64,000 nt of DNA, taken from positions 1 to 64,000 of the forward strand of contig JAIBBR010000009.1 in NCBI GenBank assembly GCA_019694575.1, in the 5' to 3' direction. Made by a program: the position numbers and the translations under genes. The stretch is from Myxococcaceae bacterium. GTDB lineage: Bacteria; Myxococcota; Myxococcia; Myxococcales; Myxococcaceae. Within the stretch, counting starts at the first letter, position 1. Each line of letters starts with the position of its first letter. Shown one piece after another: positions 25,584 to 64,000 of this stretch. Under the pieces are notes generated by a model that saw only the letters and a program-made list of their open reading frames with translations, was not told the DNA's origin and made no database searches.

Positions 25584-28500
25584 TTAGATGGCGCGACCGA
25601 AGACGTCGTACAAACCGCGCGACATTTCGAGCGAGCGAACCGTGTCGCGCAGCTTGCCCGAAATGTCTGCCTTTTCATCTGCGGTGGTGTTGGTGTCGCA
25701 GAACTTCAACGTCAGGTTCTGCGCGCGCTCAATCAACAACACGGCCGGCGTCACCGGAGTGGTGCTGCCGTTCTTCTGCAGCGCCGCGTAAGTATAACCA
25801 CCCGAAATGCCGCTGAGTGACGCGTAGCAGGCGGCGTTCGCACCCACCGCATTCACGTCGGGGAAAGACAGCACCGAGTAGTTTTCAGTGGGGGTGAGCG
25901 CTTCACCCGAGCCCAACCGGTAAATCTGGCTGAAGCTCGCGTACTCCTGATTGAAGTTCTCGGTGAAGTACGCCATGCCGAACACCTGCGCGTAGAAGCG
26001 GGTGCCCCAGCTGGTGACGGGGTTGACCTTGTTCATCAACGCCATTTGGCCCGAGGTCTGCGACGACGGAGGCGGCGGGTAAACGAAGTTGTTGATGTAG
26101 TTCTCGGCGTGCACGAATGTCTGCGGCAACACCACCGCTTCGCCATTCGAATTCTTGCCCAGTAGCGGAGCGAAGTTGCCCTGCTCTTCCGCCCACAGTG
26201 AGCCGAAGAGCGGAGCGAGCTCACGGTTGAAGGTGATGTAGTACGGCAATGAGTAGCGCAGCGCGTCTGACCCACGATCGACACCGATGAAGTTCGTCTC
26301 ACTTGTGGTGAGCGCGTTCAACGCCAAGAGCTGGTCCCAGAAGTGGCCCGACTCGTTGGCGCGGGTGAAAAAGTCGAAACCCTTGGTGTCGAACTGGGTG
26401 TACATCGAACGGCCTGGCCCCCGCGGCACATAGGTGAAATCGGTGTAGCCCTTGGCGCGCATGGCGTTGAAGTACGCCGCTTCGACGGCTGGCTCCATTT
26501 TGCCGTAGCCACTCTTGTTGTCGGGCAACAGCTCCCAGTTACCGCCCGCTTTCTTGCCGTGGTAACCGACCGACGGCGTGGTGAGCAGCTGCATCAGCGA
26601 GTTGGTGCTGTCGACCACCGCCATCGTGTAATAGTTCTGCCAAACCGGGTCGCCGGCCGCGAAGAAGTCTTCGAGCTGCTCCGGCGTCAAAATGGTGCCG
26701 TAGGTGCGGTAGGCATCGTAGATGTAATAGCTGTTGAAGAGCCACTGCTGGTACACGTTGGGCAGGTTGGCCACGTAGCGGTTGAACTTGCCGCCCGCCA
26801 CCGTCGACGGGTTGTAGAACAACCGGTCACGGCGAAAGTTAGAGAACACGTACGTGTTTTCCAGACGCTCCAACCACTTGTGCGTCATTTCGTAGACGTC
26901 AGCGCCCTGGTCATTGCGGTTGCAAATGACGTTGGCGCCTACTTCGACGTCAGAGCAGAACATGTACGGCACTTCGACCGGCAGCTCACCACCCGCGGTT
27001 TTCTTGAGCACATTGCCCACGATGGTGCGAGAAATTTCAGTGGCGGCGATGTCGTAGTCTTTCGACGACAGGTAAAAGTCTTTAATTTCTGCTTCGAGCT
27101 TGGTGTACCAAACCTGCATGTCGCTCCACTTGCGGAACGAGCGGTTGTTCATACGCTCGATGCCTTGATCAAGCGCTTGCGCGAAGTCTAACCCTTCGTC
27201 AGCGAAGTGAAAGGGCAGCGTGGTGTAGTGAAAGCGGTCGCTGTACAGCGCCGACACCGGCGTGTAGTGCTGCACAATCGACACCGGAATTTCAGTGTGA
27301 GCGCCGCGCACCAACAACTTGCGGCCCATCACGTCGGTGTCCATCGAGACGTTGGTTCGGGTGTAGTCGTGGCGGGTCTGGTTGAAGACCTCGACGTAAC
27401 CCGGCTCGTAGCCGCCCGAGTAAGCGAACAGCACCGCGGCCTCGTCGTACTTACCGATGCCCTTGTTTTGCGAGTTCACCCGAGCGCCGTAGTCCATGAT
27501 GCTCGAATAGGCGTACTCATACATGCCGTTGTCGATTTGCTTTTGAGTGGGCTGCGCGGCGTCGACCAGGTTTTGCGAGGTCACCGGCAACACACGCTTG
27601 CCACCGACCATCACGCCGATGCTGTCTTTGCGCAGGTCCCAGTAGCCGGTTTTGTAGTTCATCGCGTCGGCCGAGGCGATGAAGTTGTGCATCAAACCCA
27701 CGGTGTGGCCAACTTCGTGCTCAGCCACCGAGCGCCACGCTTCACCGCGGAACTCGTCGTAAATCGCCTTTTTGGCCGCCGTCTTCGCTTGGGCGTCGCT
27801 CATGCCGCTTGCCTTGTTGGCATTGAACTTGGCTTGGTATGACGCGAGCTTGGTCTTCGCCGCGCCCATGTAGTCTTCGTCGAAGTAGTCGAGGTGGTAC
27901 ATGCAACCCACCGCCGGGCCCGTCATGCGCATGAAGTCATTGCGCGCCTTGGTGATGGGGTCTTCGCCGAACATCACCTGGCGGGCCAGTGAACGGTAAA
28001 GGCCCGGGTCAGCCTCGAGGCGGGCATGCAAACCGCGGTCGGGAATTTGCGTCAACACCGCTTGGCGCACTTCGTCAATGTTGAGCAACTCGCTCTCGAG
28101 AGCCGGGTTCGATTCAATCAACTTGCGCACCACCGCGCGGCGGTCTTCTTTGCGCAGCGGTAAGTGACCGTCTTGGTGAAACTTCTCGAGCTGCGCACGC
28201 AACGGGCCGGCAGTGCGAGCGAAGGTCGACAGTGGCTCGCGGTTGGGCACCGACACCAAGGGCTGTTGAGACACCGCCGGGCCGTCAGCACGGCGCGGGT
28301 CGGTGGGGCCCAAGTTGGCGAATACGTGGTCTTTCATGTCTTGGCCGAGAATCAGGTCTTCGAGTTTGATTTCGCCGTTGAGCACATCGACGATTTGTTG
28401 CGACGAAGCGCTCCAGGTGTCGAGACCGGGGCCGTAAATATTGGCCACCGCTTGCACGATTTCGCCGGTTTCGGGGTCGACCGACGACGGGCCGAGACCT

Positions 28501-29858
28501 AACAAGCCACCCGCCAGCTGCTGCACGTAGGGAATCATGTTGTACCGCAAATCGCCCATGCGGGCGTAGGTGCCGGGCTTGCCACACGCCGCGGGAGCGC
28601 CTTCGGGCACCGGCGACTGGCACACATAGAACATCTGCGGCGCTTGTTCAGGCTCGATGCCGTGGGGCACCGCCACCGCGCGGCGGAAAGCGTGGTCCCA
28701 CGAGGCTTCGAGGTTGTCTTTCTCGTTTACCCGGTTGCCCGCAGCGTCACGGCCGTTGGCGTAGGGCAGCAATTCTTTGGGGAAATTTTCGGTGAGGTAA
28801 TAAACCACCGGGCGAATTTCGCGCTTCTCGATGGGAATGGTGAGCGGTCGGTTCTGCGCGTCAACCTTGTCGGTGTAGTGCGCGCGCTTCCAAATGTTGT
28901 GGCGCATCGCGTACTGAATGCGGCCCGAGTCGGTAAAGCCGTAACCCTTGTCGTAAGTCAGCGTTTCCATCGCCATGCCGGCGCGGAAAAAGCCGAACTT
29001 GGTCATCAGCTTGTCGTCGTACGGCAACGGCTCGTAGTCCATCATGCGGTCTTCATCGACCTTCTTCACCGACGTGCGCAGCTTCACGTTTTGGCTTTCG
29101 CAGTCGACGCTGGGGCTGAAATAGCAATAAGGCACCGACCCATAACCTTCGATTTGCACCGAAGCAGGGTCCATAATCAGCTGGGTGGTGAAGTCGAAGT
29201 AGGTCAGCTCGTCATTGCTGTTGCGCTCGGTGACCATCGCTTCGTCGTTGGGGTTCTGGTCTTGCGCGGTGGTGTACTTGAAGTACGCGCCGTGGCCTTG
29301 GTCCCAGCAGCCGTTGCCACCGTAGCGGGTGTCGCAGCCACGCAAGTTGATGAGCTGGTTCGCCTTCCAGTCGACGCGAATGTATTCGCGGTCGTACCAG
29401 GGGCGGTCTTCGGTGTTCTCGAGCAACACGTTGGTCTGCTCACCGGTGGCGGCGTTGTACTCACGCTGCCGGTCGAAGTGCTTGGTAATCGGGTACGCGT
29501 ACACCGGCGAGCCTTTGTACGGCGTGCCGTCTAAGAACACCGGCTTGCCCACGCGCGACTTCTCTCTGTCGACGCGGGGGTCAATGCCGGGAATCTGCTC
29601 GTAAGCGCGGTAGCCCACGAGCATGTCTTCGTGAATTTCCCAGCGAATTTTTTCGAGATCGCCGCCGAAACCGACCACCGCCACGTTGCCGTTGGCGGGC
29701 ATGTCGACCACGGTGCCTTGAATGTACCAAACGCCATTCAAGAGGTCAGACTTCTTGAAGTAGTTGGGTTGGGTACGGTCGAGCATCGGGGGCGCGGTGC
29801 AGCCTGAGACCACGGCCACCATCGCCAGCGCAGCCCACAGTAAATTGAAGCGTTTCAT
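25584..29858 (-). CDS. giant zincin metalloprotease lipoprotein (second paralogue)
   Basis: A 1424-aa protein with a lipoprotein signal (MKRFNLLWAALAMVAVVSGC, Cys20). The zinc site HEVGHTVGLMH (His714, Glu715, His718, His724) and a Met-turn SSIMDY (Met788) about 65 residues later place it among metzincins, in the group with DUF5117/DUF4953-type large zinc-dependent proteases. The N-terminal 600 residues are specific to the pair. It is 40-50% similar by eye to the upstream gene along most of its length. Probable role: protein degradation or processing at the outer surface. The ATG at 29858 (SD GGAG) gives a good signal peptide; an ATG at 29897 directly after the upstream stop is an alternative. 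Confidence 0.88.
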   Translation of the reverse strand: MKRFNLLWAALAMVAVVSGCTAPPMLDRTQPNYFKKSDLLNGVWYIQGTVVDMPANGNVAVVGFGGDLEKIRWEIHEDMLVGYRAYEQIPGIDPRVDREKSRVGKPVFLDGTPYKGSPVYAYPITKHFDRQREYNAATGEQTNVLLENTEDRPWYDREYIRVDWKANQLINLRGCDTRYGGNGCWDQGHGAYFKYTTAQDQNPNDEAMVTERNSNDELTYFDFTTQLIMDPASVQIEGYGSVPYCYFSPSVDCESQNVKLRTSVKKVDEDRMMDYEPLPYDDKLMTKFGFFRAGMAMETLTYDKGYGFTDSGRIQYAMRHNIWKRAHYTDKVDAQNRPLTIPIEKREIRPVVYYLTENFPKELLPYANGRDAAGNRVNEKDNLEASWDHAFRRAVAVPHGIEPEQAPQMFYVCQSPVPEGAPAACGKPGTYARMGDLRYNMIPYVQQLAGGLLGLGPSSVDPETGEIVQAVANIYGPGLDTWSASSQQIVDVLNGEIKLEDLILGQDMKDHVFANLGPTDPRRADGPAVSQQPLVSVPNREPLSTFARTAGPLRAQLEKFHQDGHLPLRKEDRRAVVRKLIESNPALESELLNIDEVRQAVLTQIPDRGLHARLEADPGLYRSLARQVMFGEDPITKARNDFMRMTGPAVGCMYHLDYFDEDYMGAAKTKLASYQAKFNANKASGMSDAQAKTAAKKAIYDEFRGEAWRSVAEHEVGHTVGLMHNFIASADAMNYKTGYWDLRKDSIGVMVGGKRVLPVTSQNLVDAAQPTQKQIDNGMYEYAYSSIMDYGARVNSQNKGIGKYDEAAVLFAYSGGYEPGYVEVFNQTRHDYTRTNVSMDTDVMGRKLLVRGAHTEIPVSIVQHYTPVSALYSDRFHYTTLPFHFADEGLDFAQALDQGIERMNNRSFRKWSDMQVWYTKLEAEIKDFYLSSKDYDIAATEISRTIVGNVLKKTAGGELPVEVPYMFCSDVEVGANVICNRNDQGADVYEMTHKWLERLENTYVFSNFRRDRLFYNPSTVAGGKFNRYVANLPNVYQQWLFNSYYIYDAYRTYGTILTPEQLEDFFAAGDPVWQNYYTMAVVDSTNSLMQLLTTPSVGYHGKKAGGNWELLPDNKSGYGKMEPAVEAAYFNAMRAKGYTDFTYVPRGPGRSMYTQFDTKGFDFFTRANESGHFWDQLLALNALTTSETNFIGVDRGSDALRYSLPYYITFNRELAPLFGSLWAEEQGNFAPLLGKNSNGEAVVLPQTFVHAENYINNFVYPPPPSSQTSGQMALMNKVNPVTSWGTRFYAQVFGMAYFTENFNQEYASFSQIYRLGSGEALTPTENYSVLSFPDVNAVGANAACYASLSGISGGYTYAALQKNGSTTPVTPAVLLIERAQNLTLKFCDTNTTADEKADISGKLRDTVRSLEMSRGLYDVFGRAI

Positions 29859-29899
29859 CGTCTTGGCTCCAGAGGTTTCGTGAGTTGTCGTGGTCATGG

Positions 29900-32800
29900 T
29901 TAGAAAGGCTTCCCGTATTCTGAATAGAAGCCACGCGCGAGGTCGAGGTCGCGAATCTGGTCGCGGAACAACGCCTTGAACTGACGGCTGCGCTGCTCAA
30001 CCAGCATCGGGTTGGTGATTTCTGAACGGTCCATGCAGTCGTAATAGAAGGCGACCAGGGGAGGCATCGGGCACATGGTCGGGTTTTCCACCACCTGCAA
30101 ATACTCGCGGGCTTGGTTGACCAAGCGAATGGCCGGCGACGAATTGGTCGCTGCTCCGTCTTTCTCGTACGCCAGGTAGCGAGCACCGGTGTCTTTGTCT
30201 TGCACTTCCACCGTGTGGAAGCCGACGGTGGGAGTGGCCGCTTCGCCACCGCCCAAGCGGAACACTTGGTTGGCCTTGGCGTAGTCCAAGTCGTAATTGG
30301 TCGCGAACAACGCCATGCCCAAGTACAGCGCGTAAATGCGGCTGGTCCACGTCATTTGAATGTTGACGCGGGCAGGGTTCTGCTTCGATTCGATACAGCC
30401 CGGCGGTTTGGGCGGGGTGTCGTCGCAAGCCACTTCTTGCTTACGTGGGTAGCTGAATTGCTCGATGTACGTCGCGCCGTCGACCCAGCGGTTGAACGAC
30501 ACCTGCGGAATGTCAGTGGGCTGACCCAGTTCGTCCAGCTTGCGGTACATCAGCGGGCGAATGACCTGCTCGTTCGCCGCCCAGAGGGAGCCGAAGTTGG
30601 CCGTCATCTCAGGCTTGAAGATGGTGTAGTAGTTGATGTTGTAGCGGTTCGCGTCGGCGGAGCTGTCTACCCCGAGGAACTCGGTGGCTGGCATGACGGC
30701 CGCGAACATCGCTCCAATTTGGTCGTTGTAGTGACCCGCTTCGAGCATGCGGTACCAGAAGTTGAAACCGCTCTTGTAGTCGTAGCTCGAGTACATCGCG
30801 CGGCCTTCACCGCGGGGCAGAATCAAAAAGTCGGTCGCCGGAGGGTTGACGCTGCCCCTGTAGTATTGCTCCACCCGAGCAATGCCTTGATCATTGAGCA
30901 TGTCGAATTGAATGCCGCTCGACACCGACGACCACACCGGGCCATCAGCGGGGAAATTGCGCAGCGCCATCAGACCGAACGACGGCACGCTCATCACGTT
31001 GAGCTGGGTGTTGACGCCATCGAGCACCGCCATGGTCCAGTAGTCTTGAATCATCGGGTCGACGGTGTAGGTGGGCACGTTCTCTGCGGTGGTCGAAGCG
31101 CGGCCGAAGAACTCGTGCACCCAATGCTTGTAAATGTTGGTCACCGCGCCGAAGGTGTTGAAGGCACTGTTCATCGCGTAGTTCGCCGAGAACTTGTACC
31201 GGTCACGGCGAAAGTGCGTGCTGTAATAGTAGTTCCAGTAGTCTTCGAGCTCGGTACGCATCATCTCGTAGTAGTCGGGGCCACGGTCGAAGCGGTTGCA
31301 AGCCAGCACACCGCCCACGTGCTCGTCGCTGCAGAACATGTACGGCACTTCTAACGCGGCGTTGCCAACTTGAGCCGCGGTGGGCTTCACCCCTGAGGCC
31401 AGCAACGCGGCGATTCGTTCGTTGTCGCGTTTCACTTCTGACCACTTCATCAGCTTGCGCTTCTTCAGCTTGCTGATGCCGTCGGTGATGACGTCGTCGA
31501 CATTGGCGCCTTCTCCGAAGTGCAAGGGTACCGTCGAGTAGTGGTAGCGCTGGGTGTAGTCAGGCACGCCCGCGTGGCGGTGGTCGGCATTGACGAGCGG
31601 CAAATCGTACGCCGCGCCGGTGATGGTGACGTTGGCCCCGTCAGACCCGGGGAACACCTTGTCGCCAGCACGGGCCGATTCGAAGACTTCGACGTAGCCC
31701 GGTTCAGTACCACCCGAGTACGCGAAAATAATGGCCGCTTCGTCGTACTTGCCCACGCCCTGAAAGTCGCCGTTGATTTTGCCGGCGTAGTCCATGATTG
31801 ACGAGTACTCGAGGTCGTACATGCCGTTGGCGCGCTGGTTCAGCGTGCCGTCAGCCGCCGCCTTCAAGTCGTTGGGCGTACGGGGCAACTTCGACACCCC
31901 GTTCTGCTGCACGGTGAGGGTTGGTTTGCGCAAGTCCCAATAGCCATCGAAGTAGTTCACGGAGTCGAACGAACCTTCGAAGTTGTGGCGTAAACCCAAG
32001 GTGTGGCCGAGCTCATGCTCGCTGGTAGATTCCCAAACGTGCTGGCGCACGCGCATTGAAATTTCGTCGTCAGCCACGGCGCGCGCTTCGGCCGCGGTGC
32101 ACGACTCTTTATTGGCGCAGCTGGGGTGCGGCTTGTCTTTCAGCTCGGCCACGCGCACCTGACGGGCTTGTGACTCTTTGAACGCCAAACCAACCAAGGT
32201 TCGGTCATAAAACTCGGCCAGGTACATGTTGTTCTTCGAAGCAAAGTCGAGCCGTTGCTTCTCGAACGAGCGACCCGCCTGAATGTTGGTCAACACGTGA
32301 CGCGATGCTGCACGACGAAACTCGGCGTCTTTCGAAGCGCGGGCGCGCAACGGCTGGGGCAGCATCGCCACCAAGTCGTATTGCACTTCGGGGTTGTCGA
32401 GCACGGCTGACTCGAGCACCGGGTTCTTCGCCAAACGGTCGGCGGCTGAACGCATGGTGTCACCGCCGAACTTCGACAAACCGCCCTGCGACTTCATGCC
32501 CGCGATGAGCGCGCGGGTGTGCGCAGTGGGCCGCTCGAAGGCACCCTTCGACTCTTCGTTACGCGTGGGAATACCCTGCAACTCAGACTGCAACACCGTC
32601 TGCAAACGCTGTGACTCGGTCGCATATGAAGGGTTTCGGTTGATGTACGCACGCACCTTGTCGCCCGAAATGAACTGCTGCGAGGTGCTCTCGTCGAGAA
32701 TCAAATCAATCAAGTCGAGCACCTGGCGACCGTAAAGGTCGATGCCCCACAGGTACGTGTTGGCGGTACCCGAAATCAGCTCACCCGTCTCGGGGTCAGC

Positions 32801-34216
32801 CGACGACGGGCCATAACCCAAAAGCCCGTTCGCCACCGGCTCGGCCACCGTGTACATAAAGCTCTTGCGCAAATCGCCGAAGTGCGGCGCGTAACCCGGC
32901 TTGCCGCAGGCGGCTTGGCGCGCTTGGGCACCCGACGGGTTGTTCGCAAACTCGGGCAACGACGCATAGTTCGGCACCGGGTTGTCGCAAATGAAGAAGA
33001 CTTGCTGCGTCTCTTCAGGTGTTTTCTCTTGGGCTGCGGCCACCGCGCGGCGAAAACCCCTGTCCCAGTTGGTTTCCAAACGGCGCGCGGGAACCATGTA
33101 TTCGTCATAGTTCTTCTGGCCACCCATGCGCTCGGCCGGCGTCACGTAATACGCAATGGGCTTCACCGTGCGCTGCGCGAAAGGTATCGGCTTGTCGTAG
33201 TCGGGCTCGCCGTTGGCGTCTTTTTGAAAATAGCTTTCCCAAATGCGGTGACGGTTGGCCAAGCGAATGACCGCCGACTCGTTGTAACCAAACTTGCGGT
33301 CGTAGTTGAGACGCTCGGTGCGGAAATAACCGAACTTCGACATCAAGTCGTTGCCGTAAACAAGCGGCTCATAGTCGCGCGTCTTCACCGGGTCGACCTT
33401 GGCGAGCGAAATGCGCATTTTGATTTCGCTTGAGCTGCAGTCGTACTGCAGGTCGAGGTAGCACAGCGGGTAGTACCCGTAGTCTTCGAAGTAATACATG
33501 TCGGGGTTCGCCACGTAGCGGCCCGTGAAGTCCATGTAGACGAGCTTGTGGTTGTCGTCGTACTCGAAGGTGGGCCAGTCGTACGGGTCGCTGCCTTTTT
33601 CATTCGGTTGAATCCAGCTGGAGCTCGACGAGCCACCAATGGGGTTCTGTACCGTGCCCCAGTTCATGCCTGACATGGTGTTGAGCATGTTGGCCGACCA
33701 GTTGACGCGCATGTACTCGCGCTGGTTCCAAATGCGGTCCGACGTGTTCTCGGCAATGACGTTGCCCGGCTCACCCGTCGCAGGGTTGTAGTTACGCTGA
33801 ATGTCGAAGTGCGACTCGATGGGGAACGCCAGCACCGGCGCTCCGTAATAAACCTTGCCCCCCGAGCAGAGGCCCTGCGCGTCGCAGTACTTGGCGGTGG
33901 TGCCCGACGGCTTGCTGGTAGCGTCGATGTTCGACTCAGCGCCTACGATGTACGGGTACGCGCGGTAGCCCACCAAGTAGCCTTGCTGAATTTCAAAGAC
34001 GATTTTTTCGACGTTGCCGGTTTGGCCCGGGTACGTGAACCCGGTGGTCGCCGGAGTCCAGGTAACGGTGTTGCGGTAGTACCACTGGCCGTCGAGCAAC
34101 TCGGCCTTCTTGACGACACCCGGCTGCACGCGGTTGATGTCGCCGGTGCTTTGCGCGCACCCGGCCGCGAGCAGCGCGGTCAACGGGGCCAACAACCAGC
34201 CATGGTTCGGTTTCAT
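29900..34216 (-). CDS. giant zincin metalloprotease lipoprotein (first paralogue)
   Basis: The 1438-aa lipoprotein has MKPNHGWLLAPLTALLAAGC (Cys20), the zinc motif HELGHTLGLRHNF (His734, Glu735, His738) and a Met-turn SSIMDY. Segments shared with its paralogue include VVKKAELLDGQWYYRNT, YLVGYRAYPYI, GPSSADPETGE, VPYMFCSD and FRRDRYKFS. CGGAGGAA precedes the ATG at 34216. It follows the beta-barrel gene by 39 nt and the next protease starts within 42 nt, so the three form an operon. Prey protein digestion or envelope processing are both possible; no sequence feature decides. Confidence 0.88.
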   Translation of the reverse strand: MKPNHGWLLAPLTALLAAGCAQSTGDINRVQPGVVKKAELLDGQWYYRNTVTWTPATTGFTYPGQTGNVEKIVFEIQQGYLVGYRAYPYIVGAESNIDATSKPSGTTAKYCDAQGLCSGGKVYYGAPVLAFPIESHFDIQRNYNPATGEPGNVIAENTSDRIWNQREYMRVNWSANMLNTMSGMNWGTVQNPIGGSSSSSWIQPNEKGSDPYDWPTFEYDDNHKLVYMDFTGRYVANPDMYYFEDYGYYPLCYLDLQYDCSSSEIKMRISLAKVDPVKTRDYEPLVYGNDLMSKFGYFRTERLNYDRKFGYNESAVIRLANRHRIWESYFQKDANGEPDYDKPIPFAQRTVKPIAYYVTPAERMGGQKNYDEYMVPARRLETNWDRGFRRAVAAAQEKTPEETQQVFFICDNPVPNYASLPEFANNPSGAQARQAACGKPGYAPHFGDLRKSFMYTVAEPVANGLLGYGPSSADPETGELISGTANTYLWGIDLYGRQVLDLIDLILDESTSQQFISGDKVRAYINRNPSYATESQRLQTVLQSELQGIPTRNEESKGAFERPTAHTRALIAGMKSQGGLSKFGGDTMRSAADRLAKNPVLESAVLDNPEVQYDLVAMLPQPLRARASKDAEFRRAASRHVLTNIQAGRSFEKQRLDFASKNNMYLAEFYDRTLVGLAFKESQARQVRVAELKDKPHPSCANKESCTAAEARAVADDEISMRVRQHVWESTSEHELGHTLGLRHNFEGSFDSVNYFDGYWDLRKPTLTVQQNGVSKLPRTPNDLKAAADGTLNQRANGMYDLEYSSIMDYAGKINGDFQGVGKYDEAAIIFAYSGGTEPGYVEVFESARAGDKVFPGSDGANVTITGAAYDLPLVNADHRHAGVPDYTQRYHYSTVPLHFGEGANVDDVITDGISKLKKRKLMKWSEVKRDNERIAALLASGVKPTAAQVGNAALEVPYMFCSDEHVGGVLACNRFDRGPDYYEMMRTELEDYWNYYYSTHFRRDRYKFSANYAMNSAFNTFGAVTNIYKHWVHEFFGRASTTAENVPTYTVDPMIQDYWTMAVLDGVNTQLNVMSVPSFGLMALRNFPADGPVWSSVSSGIQFDMLNDQGIARVEQYYRGSVNPPATDFLILPRGEGRAMYSSYDYKSGFNFWYRMLEAGHYNDQIGAMFAAVMPATEFLGVDSSADANRYNINYYTIFKPEMTANFGSLWAANEQVIRPLMYRKLDELGQPTDIPQVSFNRWVDGATYIEQFSYPRKQEVACDDTPPKPPGCIESKQNPARVNIQMTWTSRIYALYLGMALFATNYDLDYAKANQVFRLGGGEAATPTVGFHTVEVQDKDTGARYLAYEKDGAATNSSPAIRLVNQAREYLQVVENPTMCPMPPLVAFYYDCMDRSEITNPMLVEQRSRQFKALFRDQIRDLDLARGFYSEYGKPF

Positions 34217-34255
34217 GCTTCCTCCGTTACGAAACGTCGACGTGTTCATGTGTTC

Positions 34256-53272: not shown

Positions 53273-55218
53273 GTCACCGGCGTTTCGAGTTGCCGCAGCG
53301 CCACGTCGATGAGCGCGTCGGCGCCTTCACGCACTTCGGGAAAAGTCGCCAAACCACCTCGCACTTGCGCATGCAAGCTGTCGCCGAGCGGGTCTTGCGA
53401 GTTGAAGCGCTCTAAATGGTGCTTGAGCAGCTTCTCGGCGTCGGCCCGCGAAGCGTCATAGAGCAGCACGCCAAACCGCGCTCCACCCAAGCTGGCAACC
53501 ATGTCGCTCATACGCACCCCGAGCGCCAAACGCGCGCCGAGGGCAGCGACGACCGCGTCGAGCTCGAAACGCGACTTGGGGGCAAGCAGGTGTCGCAAAT
53601 CAGCCTCGAAAACCAGCAACGCCAAAGTGCGCCCACGCCGTGCCAGCACCAACGCGCGCTCCAATTCTTCACGCAGCGCCGCGATGCCTGGCAACCCCGG
53701 CAGTGACGTCAGGGGAGCCAAGCGCAACTCATGGGCCCTTCGATGAACCCAACTGCGCACCCGCGCCCGCAGCTCGATGTTCGACATGGGTGAAGGCATG
53801 ACGTCGTCGGCGCCCGCTTCGAACGCGTCGAGACGCAATTGGCGCGAATCGTCTTGGGTGAGAACAAGAACCGGCACGTGGCCGTGGCGTGCGTCACCTT
53901 TGAGCGCGCGCAAAATGGCCATCAAATTCACGCCCGGCAAATCGGCCGAGAGCACCACCAAAGTGGGCGCCACTTTGTCGAGCTCTTCGAAAAGCATAGC
54001 CGGCTCTAAGCATGGCAGTACCGAGTGGCCGTCGGCGCTCAGCGTTTCGGCCACGTTGCCCAAGAGCGTGCGGTCAGCTGACACCGCCAACACCGAGAGT
54101 CCCTTGGGCGTGTCGGCGAAGTCGACGGCCACACGCAACAGCGCCTGTGCGCTGGGCAACCGATGCACATAACCGCGCGCGCCGCGAGACTGGGCAGTGA
54201 GCCGTGCCGCGAAGCTGGGGTCTTTGCCCATGACCACCACCGGCCCAAACCCATGCAGCGTGATGGTCTCGCACACGTCTAACCCGTCGAAGCCGGGGCG
54301 GTCAGCGGCGACGAAAACCACGTCAGCGCGTTCTTGCGTCAGCGAGGCCAACGCTTCAGGCATTTCGTTGAAGAGCCGAATGGGCAAACCCTTGGCCATG
54401 GCCTCGCCACACGAAAGAGCCAGCTCACCCGGCCCGTCGATGAGCAACACCCGCAGCTTGCTGCCGCCACCCGAGGTGCCGGCGATGCTCAAATTGGCTC
54501 CCGCGCGCGAGAGCTTCATCGCCAGGGCGTTCACCAAGCCGTTGAGCTGGGCCTTCACCGTGGCGCTGACCGGCGCTCCTTTTTTTTGCGTGTCGAGCAA
54601 GTCTTCAATCTGCCCGCCCAGCCGCGTCAATTCTGGCAAACCGAACGAGCCGCCGGTGCCGCGAAAACGGTGCGCTTCGATGCGCAGGGTTTTCAGCGAC
54701 TCGACTTCTTCACCGTCAGCCAACGCTTTGAGCGCCTTGTGCAGCGCGTCGATGCGCTCGGTGGCAATAATGAGGTAGTCGCTCAGCAGCTCGACCGCGG
54801 TGGTGATGTCGAGCTCAATTTCGTCAGGCACGTCGACGAGCTCTGGAGGCGGCGCGAGGGTGGGTATTTTCGCCAACGCCCGCTTCAAGTCTTCAGGTGT
54901 AATCGGCTTGTGGAGCACCGCGTCGACGCGGCATTTGACCTGCAAGTGCTGCCGGCTGCGCATGTCGCGAAAGAAGGCCGAGACAAAAATGATGGGCAGC
55001 TCGCTGGGCTCCCACTTCTCGCGCAGCGTCATTGCCAAGGCATCGCCGCGTATGCCGGGCAACAGGCCGTCAATGATGACGGCCTTGGGAGTCTCTTTCT
55101 TTAATAACCGCAGCGCTTCTTCGCCGCTGCGCACGCAAACGCAGCTGACGCCCGAACCTTGCAGCACCCCTTCCACCAGTCGGTGGAACGCTGCATCATC
55201 GTCAACGACGAGCACCAT
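53269..55218 (-). CDS. multi-domain response regulator: REC-Hpt-REC-REC-degenerate GGDEF
   Basis: The 649-aa protein has a first REC (VLVVDDDAAFHRLV, about 1-115), an Hpt phosphotransfer domain (RIEAHRFRGTGGSFGLPEL, about 130-230), two further receiver-like domains (KLRVLLIDGP at about 260; LSVLAVSADRTLL at about 380) and a C-terminal diguanylate-cyclase-like domain. There the GGDEF signature reads GGARF (SLGGARFGVLL), so the cyclase is presumably inactive. The second and third receivers lack the clear acid cluster DD and may be degenerate. The protein would act as a phosphorelay hub or scaffold. Its stop overlaps the convergent protease stop by 3 bases. A GTG at 55236 is an alternative start. 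Confidence 0.85.
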   Translation of the reverse strand: MVLVVDDDAAFHRLVEGVLQGSGVSCVCVRSGEEALRLLKKETPKAVIIDGLLPGIRGDALAMTLREKWEPSELPIIFVSAFFRDMRSRQHLQVKCRVDAVLHKPITPEDLKRALAKIPTLAPPPELVDVPDEIELDITTAVELLSDYLIIATERIDALHKALKALADGEEVESLKTLRIEAHRFRGTGGSFGLPELTRLGGQIEDLLDTQKKGAPVSATVKAQLNGLVNALAMKLSRAGANLSIAGTSGGGSKLRVLLIDGPGELALSCGEAMAKGLPIRLFNEMPEALASLTQERADVVFVAADRPGFDGLDVCETITLHGFGPVVVMGKDPSFAARLTAQSRGARGYVHRLPSAQALLRVAVDFADTPKGLSVLAVSADRTLLGNVAETLSADGHSVLPCLEPAMLFEELDKVAPTLVVLSADLPGVNLMAILRALKGDARHGHVPVLVLTQDDSRQLRLDAFEAGADDVMPSPMSNIELRARVRSWVHRRAHELRLAPLTSLPGLPGIAALREELERALVLARRGRTLALLVFEADLRHLLAPKSRFELDAVVAALGARLALGVRMSDMVASLGGARFGVLLYDASRADAEKLLKHHLERFNSQDPLGDSLHAQVRGGLATFPEVREGADALIDVALRQLETPVT

Positions 55219-55269
55219 GTCCGCCACGGAAGGCACGGCCTCTTGTTTAACACGCAGCGACAGCCCGAC

Positions 55270-56346
55270 ATGCGCCTAAAGGGCCGAGCCCTCTGGGCAG
55301 TGCTGGCCAGTCTGGCCTTGCATGCGCTGGCGTTATGGGTGTGGGGTGACCCGCCGCCCGAAACGGTGCTTTCCGTCGAACGGCCGCGGCTTACCTGGGT
55401 CGACGTGCAGACGGTGCCGGCGCCAGTTGCTCCAGCTGAACCCGAGAAGGAGCTCCCTGCGCCCAAGGCAGCACCTGTGCTGCAAAAGCGACCGCCAGGC
55501 TCGACGGCGCGCGCACCCGTGCAAGCTGCGCCCACCCGTGACGTGCCTGCCGATGCGCCGCTGCGTGCGCCCCCACTCGCGGTGCAGCCGGTGCTGCCCC
55601 ATACCGTGAGTCAATCGAAAATGGAGGTGCCCATAACCGACGCGGGAACGACAGTAGAAGAAAACGTCGCGCAGTGGGCCCGGCAGGCCATGGGCGAGCA
55701 CCGGGCACAGTCAGGCTTGGTGCACACGTATTACGCCACGCTGGGTAAGGCGCTGCTCAAAGGGTGGGACGCAGACCGCCCGCTCAAAACCACTGGCCTG
55801 CAGGCCTACGGTGAGCAGTTCGTCGAAAACACGCGTCTGTGGAACAACATTTGGCAGCAGCACGCTGAAGTTTTCGGCAAGAGTGGCTCACCGTTTACTG
55901 AAGCACCGCCCACCGCTGACCGGCGTGCTCCGGTGAATGAACGCTCGCCTTTGGGCACGGTCGACGCGGTCGACAAGCGTGCGCTCAACCAGCAAATGCG
56001 CGAGACGTTCAAAGCCACCCGGCGCGCCACGGTGAAAGTGACGCAAGACGCGACCGGCAAATTGCTCGACGTGAAGCTGATTGCGCCGTCGCATGACGCC
56101 AATGTCGACCGTGAAGCGGTGGCCGACATTCGCGCCGCGGCCGAGCGCTTACCGGTGCCTCCCACCGAGCTGGCCAAAGAAGGCGCGCCGCTGGTTTCGA
56201 TTTGGAATTTCGAGCTGGTGATTTCGATTACCCCGCCGATACCCACGTTCTCGTTCGAGTTCGATGAAGCGGTGGGGTTCATCGACGCGCGGCTGCCGCT
56301 CGACCGGCGCATCTATAAAAAGGTGCGCCTGGTTTCGGTGGAATAG
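55270..56346 (+). CDS. TonB-like energy transducer protein
   Basis: The 358-aa protein has an N-terminal helix (ALWAVLASLALHALALWVW, about 7-25), a Pro/Ala/Lys-rich linker (30-115) and a C-terminal domain resembling TonB (RRATVKVTQDATGKLLDVKLIAPSHDANVD..AVADIRAA). It is 51 bp from the divergent response regulator gene. TonB-type proteins couple the inner-membrane proton motive force to outer-membrane transport; this one lacks exbB/exbD nearby. The ATG at 55270 gives the signal-anchor; longer frames upstream run over the divergent gene. Confidence 0.8.
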   Translation: MRLKGRALWAVLASLALHALALWVWGDPPPETVLSVERPRLTWVDVQTVPAPVAPAEPEKELPAPKAAPVLQKRPPGSTARAPVQAAPTRDVPADAPLRAPPLAVQPVLPHTVSQSKMEVPITDAGTTVEENVAQWARQAMGEHRAQSGLVHTYYATLGKALLKGWDADRPLKTTGLQAYGEQFVENTRLWNNIWQQHAEVFGKSGSPFTEAPPTADRRAPVNERSPLGTVDAVDKRALNQQMRETFKATRRATVKVTQDATGKLLDVKLIAPSHDANVDREAVADIRAAAERLPVPPTELAKEGAPLVSIWNFELVISITPPIPTFSFEFDEAVGFIDARLPLDRRIYKKVRLVSVE

Positions 56347-59556: not shown

Positions 59557-59862
59557 ATGCCGAGGTCACGAAAAACCGCAAAGCAGCAAGAATTGTTTTC
59601 TATCGCCGCGGCTGGGCGCGAGCTGGGCGTCTCGATTTCGACCATCTGGAGAATGGTGCGCCGAGGTGAATTACCGACGGTTCGACTGGCCGGTCGCCGA
59701 CTCGTGCCACGAAAGGGTTTACGCAGCGCACGCCATTTTCGTGAGCTACGTTCTGTTCCCCCGCTAACCACGAATCATTCGCTCTTCGGTCTCATCGGCG
59801 CCGGGCGTAGCGGTGGTGCTGGCCCGGGCTCGAGCGACAAGTACGCGGTACTCGACTCATGA
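59557..59862 (+). CDS. excisionase-like HTH protein, putative antitoxin
   Basis: The 101-aa protein has a MerR/excisionase-type helix-turn-helix (SIAAAGRELGVSISTIWRMVRRGELPTVRLAGRRLVP, about residues 14-52) followed by a basic, then Gly/Ser-rich tail. Its last codons overlap the PIN toxin start as ATGA. Together with the operator-like repeats upstream, this fits an antitoxin that represses its own operon. The C-terminal tail would hold the toxin-neutralising part. No ribosome site was found for the ATG. Confidence 0.7.
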   Translation: MPRSRKTAKQQELFSIAAAGRELGVSISTIWRMVRRGELPTVRLAGRRLVPRKGLRSARHFRELRSVPPLTTNHSLFGLIGAGRSGGAGPGSSDKYAVLDS

Positions 59863-60272
59863 AGCGAGCAGTGCTGTGGGACTCCAGCGCGATTCTGGCC
59901 CTCATTGACCGCGATGACCGCAATCACGAGACAGCCGTCGAGATTGGCATGGGTCTGGCGAAGGACAAACGGCCCGCGTTTATCACCAACTACATCGAAG
60001 CCGAGACACATGCGCTGCTGCTTCGCCGTGTCGGCAGAGTGGTGGCGAGCCGGTGGTTGTTGACCGCGGGTTTGCCAGTTCTCGATGCGCAGAGAAACGA
60101 AGTAGAGGCGGCTCGCTTACTCATCGCTCGATTCAGCGACAAAGACTGGAGCCTCTGCGATGCGATTTCGTTCGCGATGATGCAGAAGCGAGCGGTTCGA
60201 ACAGCATTTTCCTTTGACCATCACTTCGGTCAATTCGGCAACTTCAACGTCTTGGGACTGACGTCGGCTTAA
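59859..60272 (+). CDS. PIN-domain ribonuclease toxin
   Basis: The 137-aa protein has the four PIN acidic residues in place: Asp8 (LWDSSAILAL), Glu46 or Glu48 (NYIEAETHALL), Asp101 (WSLCDAISFAMM) and Asp120 (AFSFDHHFGQFG). This is the VapC-like fold, a metal-dependent RNase that cuts tRNA or rRNA in growth arrest. It overlaps the HTH gene by 4 nt (ATGA). The overall pair is like VapBC but with an excisionase-like antitoxin in place of the common AbrB, CopG or Phd types. Confidence 0.85.
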   Translation: MKRAVLWDSSAILALIDRDDRNHETAVEIGMGLAKDKRPAFITNYIEAETHALLLRRVGRVVASRWLLTAGLPVLDAQRNEVEAARLLIARFSDKDWSLCDAISFAMMQKRAVRTAFSFDHHFGQFGNFNVLGLTSA

Positions 60273-60365: not shown

Positions 60366-62558
60366 TTGTCGAAACAGCGAATGCTTCTTGGGGTCTGGCT
60401 CGTCGCGAGCACTGCGGCGCAAGCCGCCATCTTCGAAAGACCCGTCGACATCGAAGACGCTGACGATCTCGAGTCGATGTACGAGCGCCAAGAGCTGAGC
60501 ACCGAAGACTACGAAGCGCTGCGCGAGTTGCTCGAAGAAGGCGTCGACCTCAATTCAGCCGACCGCGATGCGCTCTACGAATTACCCGGCCTCAACTGGG
60601 CCGACGTCGACGCCATCATCGCGTACCGGCAGCAAAAGGGCCGCATCGAGAACCCGGTCGAATTGGTGGCCGCCAAAGCGCTGACCGAAGAGCAGCTGCT
60701 CGAAATCACCCCCTTCATTCGGTTGGACCCCGCGCCTGACCGCGTGGCGCTCTCGGGTAAATACCGCTTCGCCACCGCGTACACCGTGGGCGACAACGTG
60801 CCTTTGCCCACGCTCGGCTTTCTCAACTTGAAAGGCCCGTACGACTTGAGCGGCGGGGTGGCATTCACCACCACTCGCTTGAGCCCAGGCACCCCCCGTT
60901 TCGACCCGCTGCACGTCGACGCACTGCAGGTCGACGGTCGCATGTACCGCTTCGAATTGCCCCGGTACTACCTGCAGTGGAAAGCCGGCCAACGCCGCGT
61001 GGTGGTGGGCAGCTACTTCATCGGTTTCGCCGAACGGGTCACGCTAGACAACAGCCGCCACCGCGCACCCACCGGCATTTACTTGAGCAACGATTTTCGC
61101 CGCGACATCGCGCTCAAGCGCACTTGCCAGGTCTCGGTTACCGGAGCGACCACCGACGTCGACAACTTGCCCTGCAGCGGCGACGTCGACAACCTGTACG
61201 TCACCCCTGACTTCGACTGGCGCGAACCGTTTCGCGGCGCCGCCGCCAGTGTCGAAAAAATTGATTTAGGGGCCCACCGCCGGCTCTCGCTCTATGGCTT
61301 CGTCAGCTACCAGTCGCGCTCGCTCTACCAATACAAAATCTACAACCGCGAAACGTGCGACGACCCCAGCGTGCGCGATGAGCATGGCGAGACAACGCCC
61401 AACTGCAAAGCGCCGCCGGTCTTTCTCGCCCAGCACGACCCTCTGGCGCCCGACGCAAAAGTCATTTTCGCGACGCTGCCCAACCTGTACAACGAGCTCA
61501 TCGGAGGTGGGCACGTCACCTTCGACGCCAACGAGCGGCTGCGCTTGGGCGTCACCGCGTACGGCGCGGCCAACTTCTTCTACGGCGCACCGCTAAAACT
61601 CGACTTTCAAGACTGGGCGGCCACACCTTATGGAGGCCCCTTTGGAGCGGTGGGCATCGACGGCAAATTCACCGCCGGCCACTTCGACTTTTACCTCGAA
61701 GGCGCGCGCAGCTTCGACAGCACCGGCAAAGGCGGAGGCTTCGCGGTGCTCCAGCGCACCGAATTCGACTACCGCAAGCACTCGGTCGAATTGGCGCTGC
61801 GCTACTACGACAACACGTACGACAACCCGTACGCACGGCCCATTTCGGCGCCTGACCAAGTCGAAGGGCTGCGCGCGCGCAACGAGCTGGGCGCACGGCT
61901 CACTTACCAAGGCCGCTTCGGCGACTGGAATTTCACCAGCCGGGCCGATGGGTGGGTGCTGCCCTATGCCGACCCCAAGCAGGGCCCCGCGGGCATGGCC
62001 AATTTGTATTTCACCACTGCACTGGAACTTCGCCGTTGGCCCGTCTTCGAGCCCGCGGTGTGGGGCGAAATGCGTAACCGCAACTTGGCGAGCAGCGTGC
62101 ACGGCACGTGCGCGTCGGGCACCATCATTTACGTCGAGAACGGTGACGTCTTTGCGTGTTCTGGTGATTTGTACCGCGCCACCGCCAGCCTCACCCTTCG
62201 GCCGCTCGGGCGGCGGTTAAACGTCATCATGCAGGGCTCCCTCACCTGGAAAGACGACGTTCGCTACAAGACTGATTTTCGCCGTGACGTGCGCGCATTC
62301 ATTGAGCTGCGTTCACAAGTCAACGACACCCTCTCGCTGCGCCTGAAGTCTCGCTACCTGAACGAAGACATCGTCGACAATACCTACTTGGAGCAGTCGT
62401 TATGGAGCTTCTTCGAAGTGGGCGCGGCCCTTCACCGGGCGCTCAAGGTGACCGCGCGGTACGACCTCTATGCTTTCCTCGACAAGAGGGCGGCCACATT
62501 GACGCGCAAGCCCAACCCCGAGCATCGTCTCTACTTAAACCTGCAGGGTTCTTTCTGA
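60366..62558 (+). CDS. helix-hairpin-helix beta-barrel envelope protein
   Basis: The 730-aa protein starts at TTG 60366, which keeps a basic n-region before the signal (KQRMLLGVWLVASTAAQA); ATG 60381 is the alternative. Residues about 45-115 form helix-hairpin-helix units (EEGVDLNSADRDALYELPGLNWADVDAIIAYRQ; KGRIENPVELVAAKALTEEQLLE) like ComEA. The rest is rich in amphipathic strands with Tyr, Arg and Asp in loops (YRFELPRYYLQWKAGQR, ELALRYYDNTYDN) and a final Phe, so it likely is an outer-membrane barrel with a DNA-binding HhH part. It heads a coupled operon with a nuclease and a lamin-tail protein. Confidence 0.75.
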   Translation: MSKQRMLLGVWLVASTAAQAAIFERPVDIEDADDLESMYERQELSTEDYEALRELLEEGVDLNSADRDALYELPGLNWADVDAIIAYRQQKGRIENPVELVAAKALTEEQLLEITPFIRLDPAPDRVALSGKYRFATAYTVGDNVPLPTLGFLNLKGPYDLSGGVAFTTTRLSPGTPRFDPLHVDALQVDGRMYRFELPRYYLQWKAGQRRVVVGSYFIGFAERVTLDNSRHRAPTGIYLSNDFRRDIALKRTCQVSVTGATTDVDNLPCSGDVDNLYVTPDFDWREPFRGAAASVEKIDLGAHRRLSLYGFVSYQSRSLYQYKIYNRETCDDPSVRDEHGETTPNCKAPPVFLAQHDPLAPDAKVIFATLPNLYNELIGGGHVTFDANERLRLGVTAYGAANFFYGAPLKLDFQDWAATPYGGPFGAVGIDGKFTAGHFDFYLEGARSFDSTGKGGGFAVLQRTEFDYRKHSVELALRYYDNTYDNPYARPISAPDQVEGLRARNELGARLTYQGRFGDWNFTSRADGWVLPYADPKQGPAGMANLYFTTALELRRWPVFEPAVWGEMRNRNLASSVHGTCASGTIIYVENGDVFACSGDLYRATASLTLRPLGRRLNVIMQGSLTWKDDVRYKTDFRRDVRAFIELRSQVNDTLSLRLKSRYLNEDIVDNTYLEQSLWSFFEVGAALHRALKVTARYDLYAFLDKRAATLTRKPNPEHRLYLNLQGSF

Positions 62559-63691
62559 TGCCATCTCGACGCATCGTGCAGCCGTTGTTCTTCGCTCTCG
62601 TCGGGCTCGCCAGCGCCTGTCAAAGCACGCGCGATTCACGCCGCTTCACCCGCGAAGAAATCAGCGCCGAGCTGCGCAAGATGGAAGTGGTGAGCTTGGA
62701 CTTGGGTGAATTTCCCATCGATGGCGCCAGCGCCGTCGTCGACGGCGACACCATTCACGTCAAAGGCCTGCAGAGCTCTTTGCGTCTGCTCGGGCTCGAC
62801 ACCGAAGAAACCTTCAAGCACGAAGACGAGCGCAAGGCGTACGCCGCCGGTTGGGACAATTACCGCGAAAAAATGCGCGGCAATTCGCCCCGCCCCGTGA
62901 AAATGGCCACGCCCATGGGTGAAGAAGCCAAGGTGTGGGCCGAAGGTTTCTTCGAAGGCGTGCAGTCGGTGCGGCTCGAGCGCGACCACCCCGGTGAAAT
63001 TCGCGACTACTACGGTCGGTACCTCGCCTACGTGATGGTTTACAAAAACGGCCGCTGGCTCAACTACAACATCGAGTGCGTGCGCGCGGGTTACAGCCCG
63101 TACTTCACCAAGTACGGCCGTTCACGGCGCTTTCACCGCGAGTTTTTAGAAGCGCAGAAAAACGCGCAAGAAGCGAAAATCGGCATTTGGTCACCGGGCA
63201 AGCTGCATTACCCCGACTACGACGAGCGGCTGAAGTGGTGGAACAACCGTGAGAGCACCATCACCCGCTTCGAAAAACAGATGGAAGACAACCCTGACAA
63301 CTACATCGCCCTCACCCGGTGGGACGCGCTGACCAAGCTCGAGGGCAAAGTCGGTGAGCCGGTGGTGCTGCTCGGCGCGGTGAGTGAAGTGACCATCGCC
63401 GAAAAAGGCCCCAGCGTGGTGAAGCTCTCGCGCACCCGCAACAGCGACTTCGACATCGTCTTCTTCGACAAAGACGTGATGCTGGCGTCGGGAGTGCTCT
63501 TCAAGCGCGGTGAATACGTGCAAGTGCGCGGCATCGTCACGCGGTACCGGCCGAAATATCTCGGCCGCGAACGGTTGCAGTTGGTGGTCACCTTACCGGG
63601 GCAAGTGCTCGCTCCCAGTGCCGAATTGGAACAACTGTTGGCAAACGAGCACCCCGACACGGCCGAAGCACGAAACTTGGAAGGCGAATGA
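62558..63691 (+). CDS. thermonuclease-fold (SNase-like) lipoprotein
   Basis: The 377-aa protein starts at ATG 62558, sharing one base with the stop of the upstream gene (TGATG), and has a lipoprotein signal ending in Cys22 (LASAC). The SNase-like core covers about residues 50-215: VVDGDTIHVKG, LRLLGLDTEETF, HPGEIRDYYGRYLAYVMVYKNGRW and NIECVRAGYSPYF. Usual Arg/Asp catalytic positions are partly visible (RLLGLD; REFLEA). The C-terminal domain (about 230-377) is of OB type, possibly nucleic-acid-binding (VQVRGIVTRYRPKYLGRERL). It would cut DNA or RNA outside the cytoplasm. Confidence 0.85.
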   Translation: MPSRRIVQPLFFALVGLASACQSTRDSRRFTREEISAELRKMEVVSLDLGEFPIDGASAVVDGDTIHVKGLQSSLRLLGLDTEETFKHEDERKAYAAGWDNYREKMRGNSPRPVKMATPMGEEAKVWAEGFFEGVQSVRLERDHPGEIRDYYGRYLAYVMVYKNGRWLNYNIECVRAGYSPYFTKYGRSRRFHREFLEAQKNAQEAKIGIWSPGKLHYPDYDERLKWWNNRESTITRFEKQMEDNPDNYIALTRWDALTKLEGKVGEPVVLLGAVSEVTIAEKGPSVVKLSRTRNSDFDIVFFDKDVMLASGVLFKRGEYVQVRGIVTRYRPKYLGRERLQLVVTLPGQVLAPSAELEQLLANEHPDTAEARNLEGE

Positions 63692-64000
63692 ACAACATCA
63701 AAGCGGCAGTGGTTTTAAGTGGGGCGACGCTTCTCGTGTGCGGTTGTACTCCGCCGGGGCCCAGCGAAGACTTGTGTGTCGGCCGCAAAGCCGGCGACTT
63801 GGTGATTACCGAGTTTATGTCGAACCCGGCGTCGACCGACACCGGCTCGGAATACATCGAAATCTTCAACAGTCTAGGCACGGCGGTAGAGCTAAAAGGC
63901 ATTACCGTTTACGTGAAGAAAACCGACGGCACCGGGTTGAAGACGCATGTGATTCGCGCCGGCACCGTGCCCGCCCGCGGCTACATGGCCATCGGCGACA
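63688..64000 (+). CDS. lamin-tail-domain lipoprotein, cut by the window edge
   Basis: A coding start ATG at 63688 overlaps the upstream stop (ATGA). The product begins with a lipoprotein signal (MNNIKAAVVLSGATLLVCGC, Cys18 or Cys20) and a lamin-tail-like fold (LVITEFMSNPASTDTGSEYIEIFN, VELKGITVYVKK, GTVPARGYMAIGD). The gene continues past base 64000. Lamin tail domains in bacteria occur on secreted nucleases and adhesins. It belongs to the same unit as the HhH barrel and the nuclease lipoprotein. Confidence 0.8.
   Translation, partial: MNNIKAAVVLSGATLLVCGCTPPGPSEDLCVGRKAGDLVITEFMSNPASTDTGSEYIEIFNSLGTAVELKGITVYVKKTDGTGLKTHVIRAGTVPARGYMAIGD

Follow-up and report, generated by a model that had tools for sequence, protein, structure and literature searches.

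A conserved Myxococcota operon for a predicted outer-membrane barrel, a lamin-tail lipoprotein, and nuclease lipoproteins, with a possible role in nucleic-acid scavenging

Here, we describe an operon at the end of a 64,000-nucleotide stretch of DNA from a Myxococcaceae bacterium (the window), which encodes a predicted outer-membrane barrel followed by lipoproteins with staphylococcal-type nuclease (SN1 and SN2) and lamin-tail (LTD) domains. The operon and its conservation were established by computation, as were the predicted barrel, the intact nuclease sites, and the lipoprotein signals. The preliminary description had proposed a surface module for the capture and cutting of DNA, and a nucleic-acid-processing module of the envelope is well supported, given the co-occurrence of the genes, the barrel prediction, and the retention of the catalytic residues. 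We tentatively favor, at a probability somewhat short of even, a cell-envelope machine of Myxococcota that digests external nucleic acids and takes up the products; here, we infer the outward orientation of the lipoproteins, the formation of a complex, the direction of transport, and the feeding role.

Layout and conservation of the operon

The first 64 kb of a draft-genome contig that runs to position 69717 make up the window, and the operon extends past its end (Table 1). The closest named relatives are Myxococcaceae. Overlaps of 1 nt and 4 nt had been claimed for three genes, and both were confirmed: the ATG of SN1 shares 1 nt with the stop codon of the barrel gene, and the LTD gene starts 4 nt before the end of SN1. 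The three genes of the operon as first described are thus present, but they are not the complete set, since a fourth gene, SN2, lies downstream of the window and overlaps the LTD gene by 10 nt. The whole LTD gene spans contig positions 63688 to 65400 and encodes a protein of 570 amino acids with three LTD stretches and the lipobox VCG-C20. The barrel gene starts with a TTG at position 60366, and an alternative ATG is found at 60381. Of three SNase matches in the whole genome, two are in the operon. A scan for promoters and terminators gave a signal at chance level.

Table 1. Genes and domains of the operon; coordinates refer to the window unless the contig is named
Feature	Coordinates	Strand	Description
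Barrel gene (gene 1)	60366..62558	+	730 aa; signal peptide, acidic N-terminal HhH-fold domain, 24-strand barrel, C-terminal Phe
HHH_3 region, residues 58-119	60537..60722	+	Pfam HHH_3, 3.9e-11; hairpins without G-h-G
Beta-barrel, residues 130-730	60753..62555	+	24 strands by DSSP of the AlphaFold2 (AF2) model
SN1 (gene 2), SNase lipoprotein	62558..63691	+	377 aa; lipobox ASA-C21
SN1 SNase domain	62780..63193	+	R76, D81, E84, R154 = staphylococcal nuclease R35, D40, E43, R87
SN1 C-terminal OB-like domain, residues 249-351	63302..63610	+	AF2 secondary-structure order; Pfam OB-fold
LTD (gene 3), lamin-tail-domain lipoprotein	63688..64000 in window	+	Gene cut by the window end
SN2 (gene 4), second SNase lipoprotein	contig 65391-65873, beyond window		160 aa; GTG start; SNase + lipobox

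The coupling of these genes withstood a survey of their co-occurrence, as barrel, LTD, and SNase genes stand side by side across the phylum rather than being rarely found together. Their adjacency recurs in approximately 80 other Myxococcota loci, far above chance. The barrel was present in 32 of 60 relatives, a count that includes the window's own genome. Among the 59 other relatives, 28 carried both the barrel and SN2, 3 the barrel only, 1 SN2 only, and 27 neither (Fisher p=2.4e-12, with shared ancestry uncorrected). A contig scan gave 79 additional loci, all but one titled Myxococcota, Deltaproteobacteria, or uncultured; phyla beyond Myxococcota were covered by this single scan, which is biased toward relatives of the query, such that absence there is not implied. 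The one exception, a record titled "Comamonas sp. KCTC 72670" (L145), holds the operon, falls together with Myxococcus xanthus in the tree of barrels, and probably stems from a mislabelled or contaminated assembly. M. xanthus has the barrel, and the set occurs in Myxococcus and other predatory genera.

Clustering of neighboring ORFs placed the barrel at 88 loci, LTD at 84, SN2 at 64, and SN1 at 53; the next real family reached 16. Since families beyond the set occur at no more than 16 of the 88 loci, the unit is self-contained, with the barrel and LTD as its core pair. LTD adjoins the barrel in essentially all loci with sufficient contig, even where the genes stand in rotated order or the barrels share very little identity, and the loci lacking LTD, by inspection, reach a contig end. 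In the same clustering, no nucleotidase or nucleoside transporter family recurred in the neighborhood. The gene orders observed were barrel-SN1-LTD-SN2, barrel-LTD-SN2, and [short LTD]-SN1-LTD-SN2-barrel, and very distant barrel families (E of ~1e-61 to 1e-10) retained LTD-SN2-barrel or LTD-barrel. In a quick FastTree of the barrels, which came with a long-branch warning, a single branch separates the loci with the barrel last from the others. The order was rotated once on this tree with the set intact; likewise on this tree, the absence of SN1 among barrel-first loci needs two changes. The locus sister to the barrel-first clade (L171) has an intermediate order, barrel-short LTD-SN1-LTD-SN2. 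The short LTD lipoprotein, of ~200 to 240 amino acids, belongs to the gene cluster in the non-Myxococcaceae lineages (L102, L106, L119, L150, L171, and others), bears its own lipobox-like signal, and has no counterpart in the operon of the window.

The barrel and its N-terminal HhH-fold domain

A probable outer-membrane barrel had been assigned to the first protein, and AlphaFold2 predicted a barrel with high confidence (pLDDT 90 and pTM 0.88, from a 65-row alignment) and not another fold. Counted from the strand list, the model has 24 membrane-length strands, connected by short turns at one end of the barrel and by long loops at the other; the conserved cysteine pairs 254/270, 331/347, and 582/598 lie in these loops. 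A signal peptide (seen by eye), the even number of strands, and a terminal aromatic residue are all features of outer-membrane barrels. A C-terminal Phe is typical of outer-membrane proteins, and F730 was nearly invariant among 24 homologues.

The sole Pfam match in the barrel protein was HHH_3 (Table 1). With Foldseek, the best matches of the barrel model were the 24-strand protein-translocating ushers FimD and PapC, and TonB-dependent transporters and MtrB matched about equally well, in all cases with a TM score by query of at most 0.37. Judging by the model, the predicted barrel is real and is without a close solved relative in the PDB. Pfam scans of the barrel and its homologues found no TonB plug, chaperone-usher, or Slam family, and the strands number 24, not 22. 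Likewise, no SusC/SusD family matched the barrel, SN1, LTD, or SN2 in Pfam. A viral fold library returned generic porin and barrel matches only, and no barrel homologues were found on plasmids.

ComEA-type HhH domains bind DNA via G-h-G hairpins and a basic surface. As for the ComEA-like HhH motifs previously assigned to the first protein, the HHH_3 domain itself is present, and its match is kept in 55 of 65 barrel homologues, but the ComEA-type signature is not, as G-h-G is absent and the domain is acidic. Among the 65 homologues, the second glycine of each hairpin is gone, with positions 77 and 107 never being Gly, and the median net charge of the N-terminal domain is -12. In contrast, a ComEA-like protein encoded elsewhere in the same genome has canonical GVG and GFG hairpins and a net charge of +7 in 58 residues. 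The HhH domain showed similarity to ComEA 8dss (E=0.0022) and scored 19 bits with the ComEA family model TIGR01259, against a cut-off of 152; neither two G-h-G hairpins nor a basic DNA-binding face was found in it. Given the loss of G-h-G and the acidity of both the N-terminal domain and the LTD protein, DNA capture by these two is not supported, and high-affinity capture by either is doubtful; the earlier argument for DNA capture thus loses force at the HhH domain. For this HhH-fold domain, a structural or gating role is more likely than one in DNA binding, and an HhH annotation need not imply that a protein binds DNA.

The nuclease and lamin-tail lipoproteins

Both nucleases matched the Pfam SNase family (PF00565; cut-off of 21 bits), SN1 at 2.7e-13 (50.7 bits) and SN2 at 2.8e-18 (66.8 bits). 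This match, together with the lipobox, bears out the assignment of gene 2 as an SNase-like lipoprotein. In this family, Arg35, Glu43, and Arg87 are the catalytic residues and Asp21 and Asp40 the Ca ligands. In SN1, R76, D81, E84, and R154 are all invariant among 47 sequences, as are D62 and D64 (corresponding to D19 and D21), which lie just ahead of the SNase-domain stretch. In SN2, R49, E57, R97, and D38 are invariant and D54 is conserved in at least 90% of 22 sequences. Both proteins thus retain the catalytic residues, and the SNase core claimed earlier was not undermined by their loss. The SN1 model matched staphylococcal nuclease in Foldseek with a TM score by target of ~0.8, the matches covering the SNase part. 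For the C-terminal domain, the OB-fold Pfam family tRNA_anti-codon was matched in 27 of 47 SN1 members, at best with 3.4e-5. In PADLOC, both SNases matched the candidate model "SNc+LTD," and no other matches were obtained.

In the full gene 3, the Pfam LTD family (PF00932) was matched at 2.3e-21 (76.6 bits, against a cut-off of 34.3), which, with the lipobox, agrees with its description as a lamin-tail lipoprotein. The net charge of this protein is approximately -30. LTDs have been found with secreted nucleases in other systems (PMC6085458, PMC4486849, PMC8289736). Elsewhere in the same genome, three large adjacent LTD-domain proteins are encoded on one strand (G000:C62:21799-28630; L078).

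By a crude pattern, a lipobox was present in 44 of 53 SN1, 73 of 90 LTD, and 52 of 61 SN2 family members. Asp at position +2 is an inner-membrane signal in E. coli, and three SN1 proteins have Asp at +2. In M. xanthus, location in the inner membrane is associated with Lys at +2 and location in the matrix with Ala at +7 (PMC3222651). Neither residue is present at these positions in the lipoproteins of the window, and the family lipoboxes mostly have no Lys at +2, which suggests that the window's lipoproteins may be located in the outer membrane.

Possible functions and related systems

Predatory myxobacteria release prey DNA, and, to our knowledge, little is known of how fragments of DNA or RNA that serve as food cross the outer membrane of Gram-negative bacteria. 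In the scavenging machine that we favor, the core would be the large outer-membrane barrel, with its N-terminal domain on the periplasmic side, together with the LTD lipoprotein. Ca-dependent nucleases of the staphylococcal type, one or two in number and likewise lipoproteins, would join the same complex or membrane patch, one of them bearing an additional OB-fold. At the outer membrane, the SNases would cut DNA or RNA, for example from lysed prey, and the barrel would let short fragments or nucleotides into the periplasm. The two nuclease lipoproteins, the OB domain, and the LTD point to nucleic acid as the substrate, and the operon offers no possible conduit other than the barrel. Since the barrel lacks a TonB plug, there is no obvious energy source for import. 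If the model holds, a genetically tractable system, with the barrel in M. xanthus, makes the question of DNA or RNA import directly testable. A more specific proposal is that of a phylum-specific outer-membrane machine in which surface nucleases are coupled to fragment import via the 24-strand barrel and in which a repurposed HhH-fold domain that does not bind DNA acts as the gate of the barrel. Such a machine would be a nucleic-acid counterpart of SusCD, unrelated to it in sequence; this we regard as possible rather than probable.

Scavenging import is ranked first and lipoprotein export second, and the tight pairing of the barrel with LTD fits both. Slam proteins deliver surface lipoproteins, and the barrel could be a dedicated translocon of a similar kind that carries LTD, SN1, and SN2 to the surface, with the nucleases acting there or in the matrix and no import of nucleic acid. 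Such a role would suit a barrel that has a soluble N-terminal domain and is genetically tied to several lipoproteins, LTD most tightly, and whose best structural matches are ushers; however, the low TM scores, the comparable matches to TonB-dependent transporters and MtrB, and the lack of a Slam or usher family match in Pfam make export somewhat unlikely. The "SNc+LTD" model of PADLOC and the Asp at +2 of three SN1 proteins would fit a periplasmic or outer-membrane barrier, in which the SNases destroy incoming phage or foreign DNA and the barrel and LTD serve as a scaffold. Nevertheless, the locus is vertically inherited, clustered, and phylum-wide, no other neighbor family recurs widely, a 24-strand pore would be an odd component, and PADLOC matched nothing else, which renders a barrier improbable.

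The barrel might also act in natural transformation, as an alternative outer-membrane DNA gate whose HhH domain pulls DNA in like ComEA. The widely kept HHH_3 match, the similarity to ComEA 8dss, and the presence of ComEC in the window's genome are in line with this idea, but the HhH domain is acidic and its hairpins are without G-h-G, a canonical basic ComEA-like protein is available elsewhere in the genome, and the adjacent nucleases would cut transforming DNA. Moreover, ComEC was found in 59 of 60 relatives irrespective of the barrel, so that nothing links the operon to transformation; a ComEC-operon link was dropped for this reason, and uptake of DNA for transformation, lacking positive support, is quite improbable.

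Compared with the ComEA receptor, the operon has an HHH_3 domain placed suitably for a periplasmic receptor, but one without the hairpin signatures or basic charge and fused to a 24-strand barrel. In SusC/SusD-type uptake, a single locus encodes a large outer-membrane barrel, a surface lipoprotein, and degradative enzymes; the operon shares the big barrel, lipoprotein, and degradative enzymes but has no TonB plug, SusD domain, or family match, and 24 strands instead of 22. We know of no barrel partner of ExeM, a nuclease of Shewanella. Like the operon's products, ExeM joins secreted nuclease activity with a lamin-tail domain, and such extracellular nucleases have been connected with biofilm DNA and the acquisition of nutrients; however, ExeM is a single polypeptide with an EEP nuclease domain, whereas the operon has separate LTD and SNase lipoproteins and a barrel (PMC6085458). 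The DNA-degradation loci of Candidatus Izemoplasmatales, which have been associated with feeding on external DNA, similarly co-localize secreted nucleases with an LTD-bearing nuclease, but these bacteria have no outer membrane, hence no barrel, and their loci include transporters and other genes of nucleic-acid catabolism, none of which recur at the barrel loci (PMC8289736). Predatory Bdellovibrio releases nucleases that digest prey DNA, but as free secreted enzymes, for which the relevant part of the source describes no barrel or LTD lipoprotein partner (PMC7925074). The preliminary description knew of no system with this exact set, and we likewise found no description of the gene set in the open-access literature; Myxococcus outer-membrane vesicle (OMV) and outer-membrane papers gave no match mappable to the operon (PMC4158809, PMC3222651). 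The individual families are known, and the combination, the barrel, and the degenerate HhH domain appear to be undescribed.

Other genes were observed upstream in the window. A TonB_2-family protein is encoded 4 kb upstream on the same strand as the operon (55159 to 56346), and 11 close relatives have a homologue ~0.5 to 4 kb ahead of their barrel gene. It is possibly an energy transducer, or its position mere synteny; we rejected it as the energy source, given that only near relatives share it and that the barrel carries no plug. Immediately before the operon (59557 to 60272), an HTH_17 (excisionase-like) gene and a PIN-domain gene overlap by 4 nt and probably form a toxin-antitoxin pair of the VapBC type. 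On the minus strand, positions 25584 to 34249 encode a tandem pair of 1400-amino-acid proteins with DUF4953 met-zincin matches.
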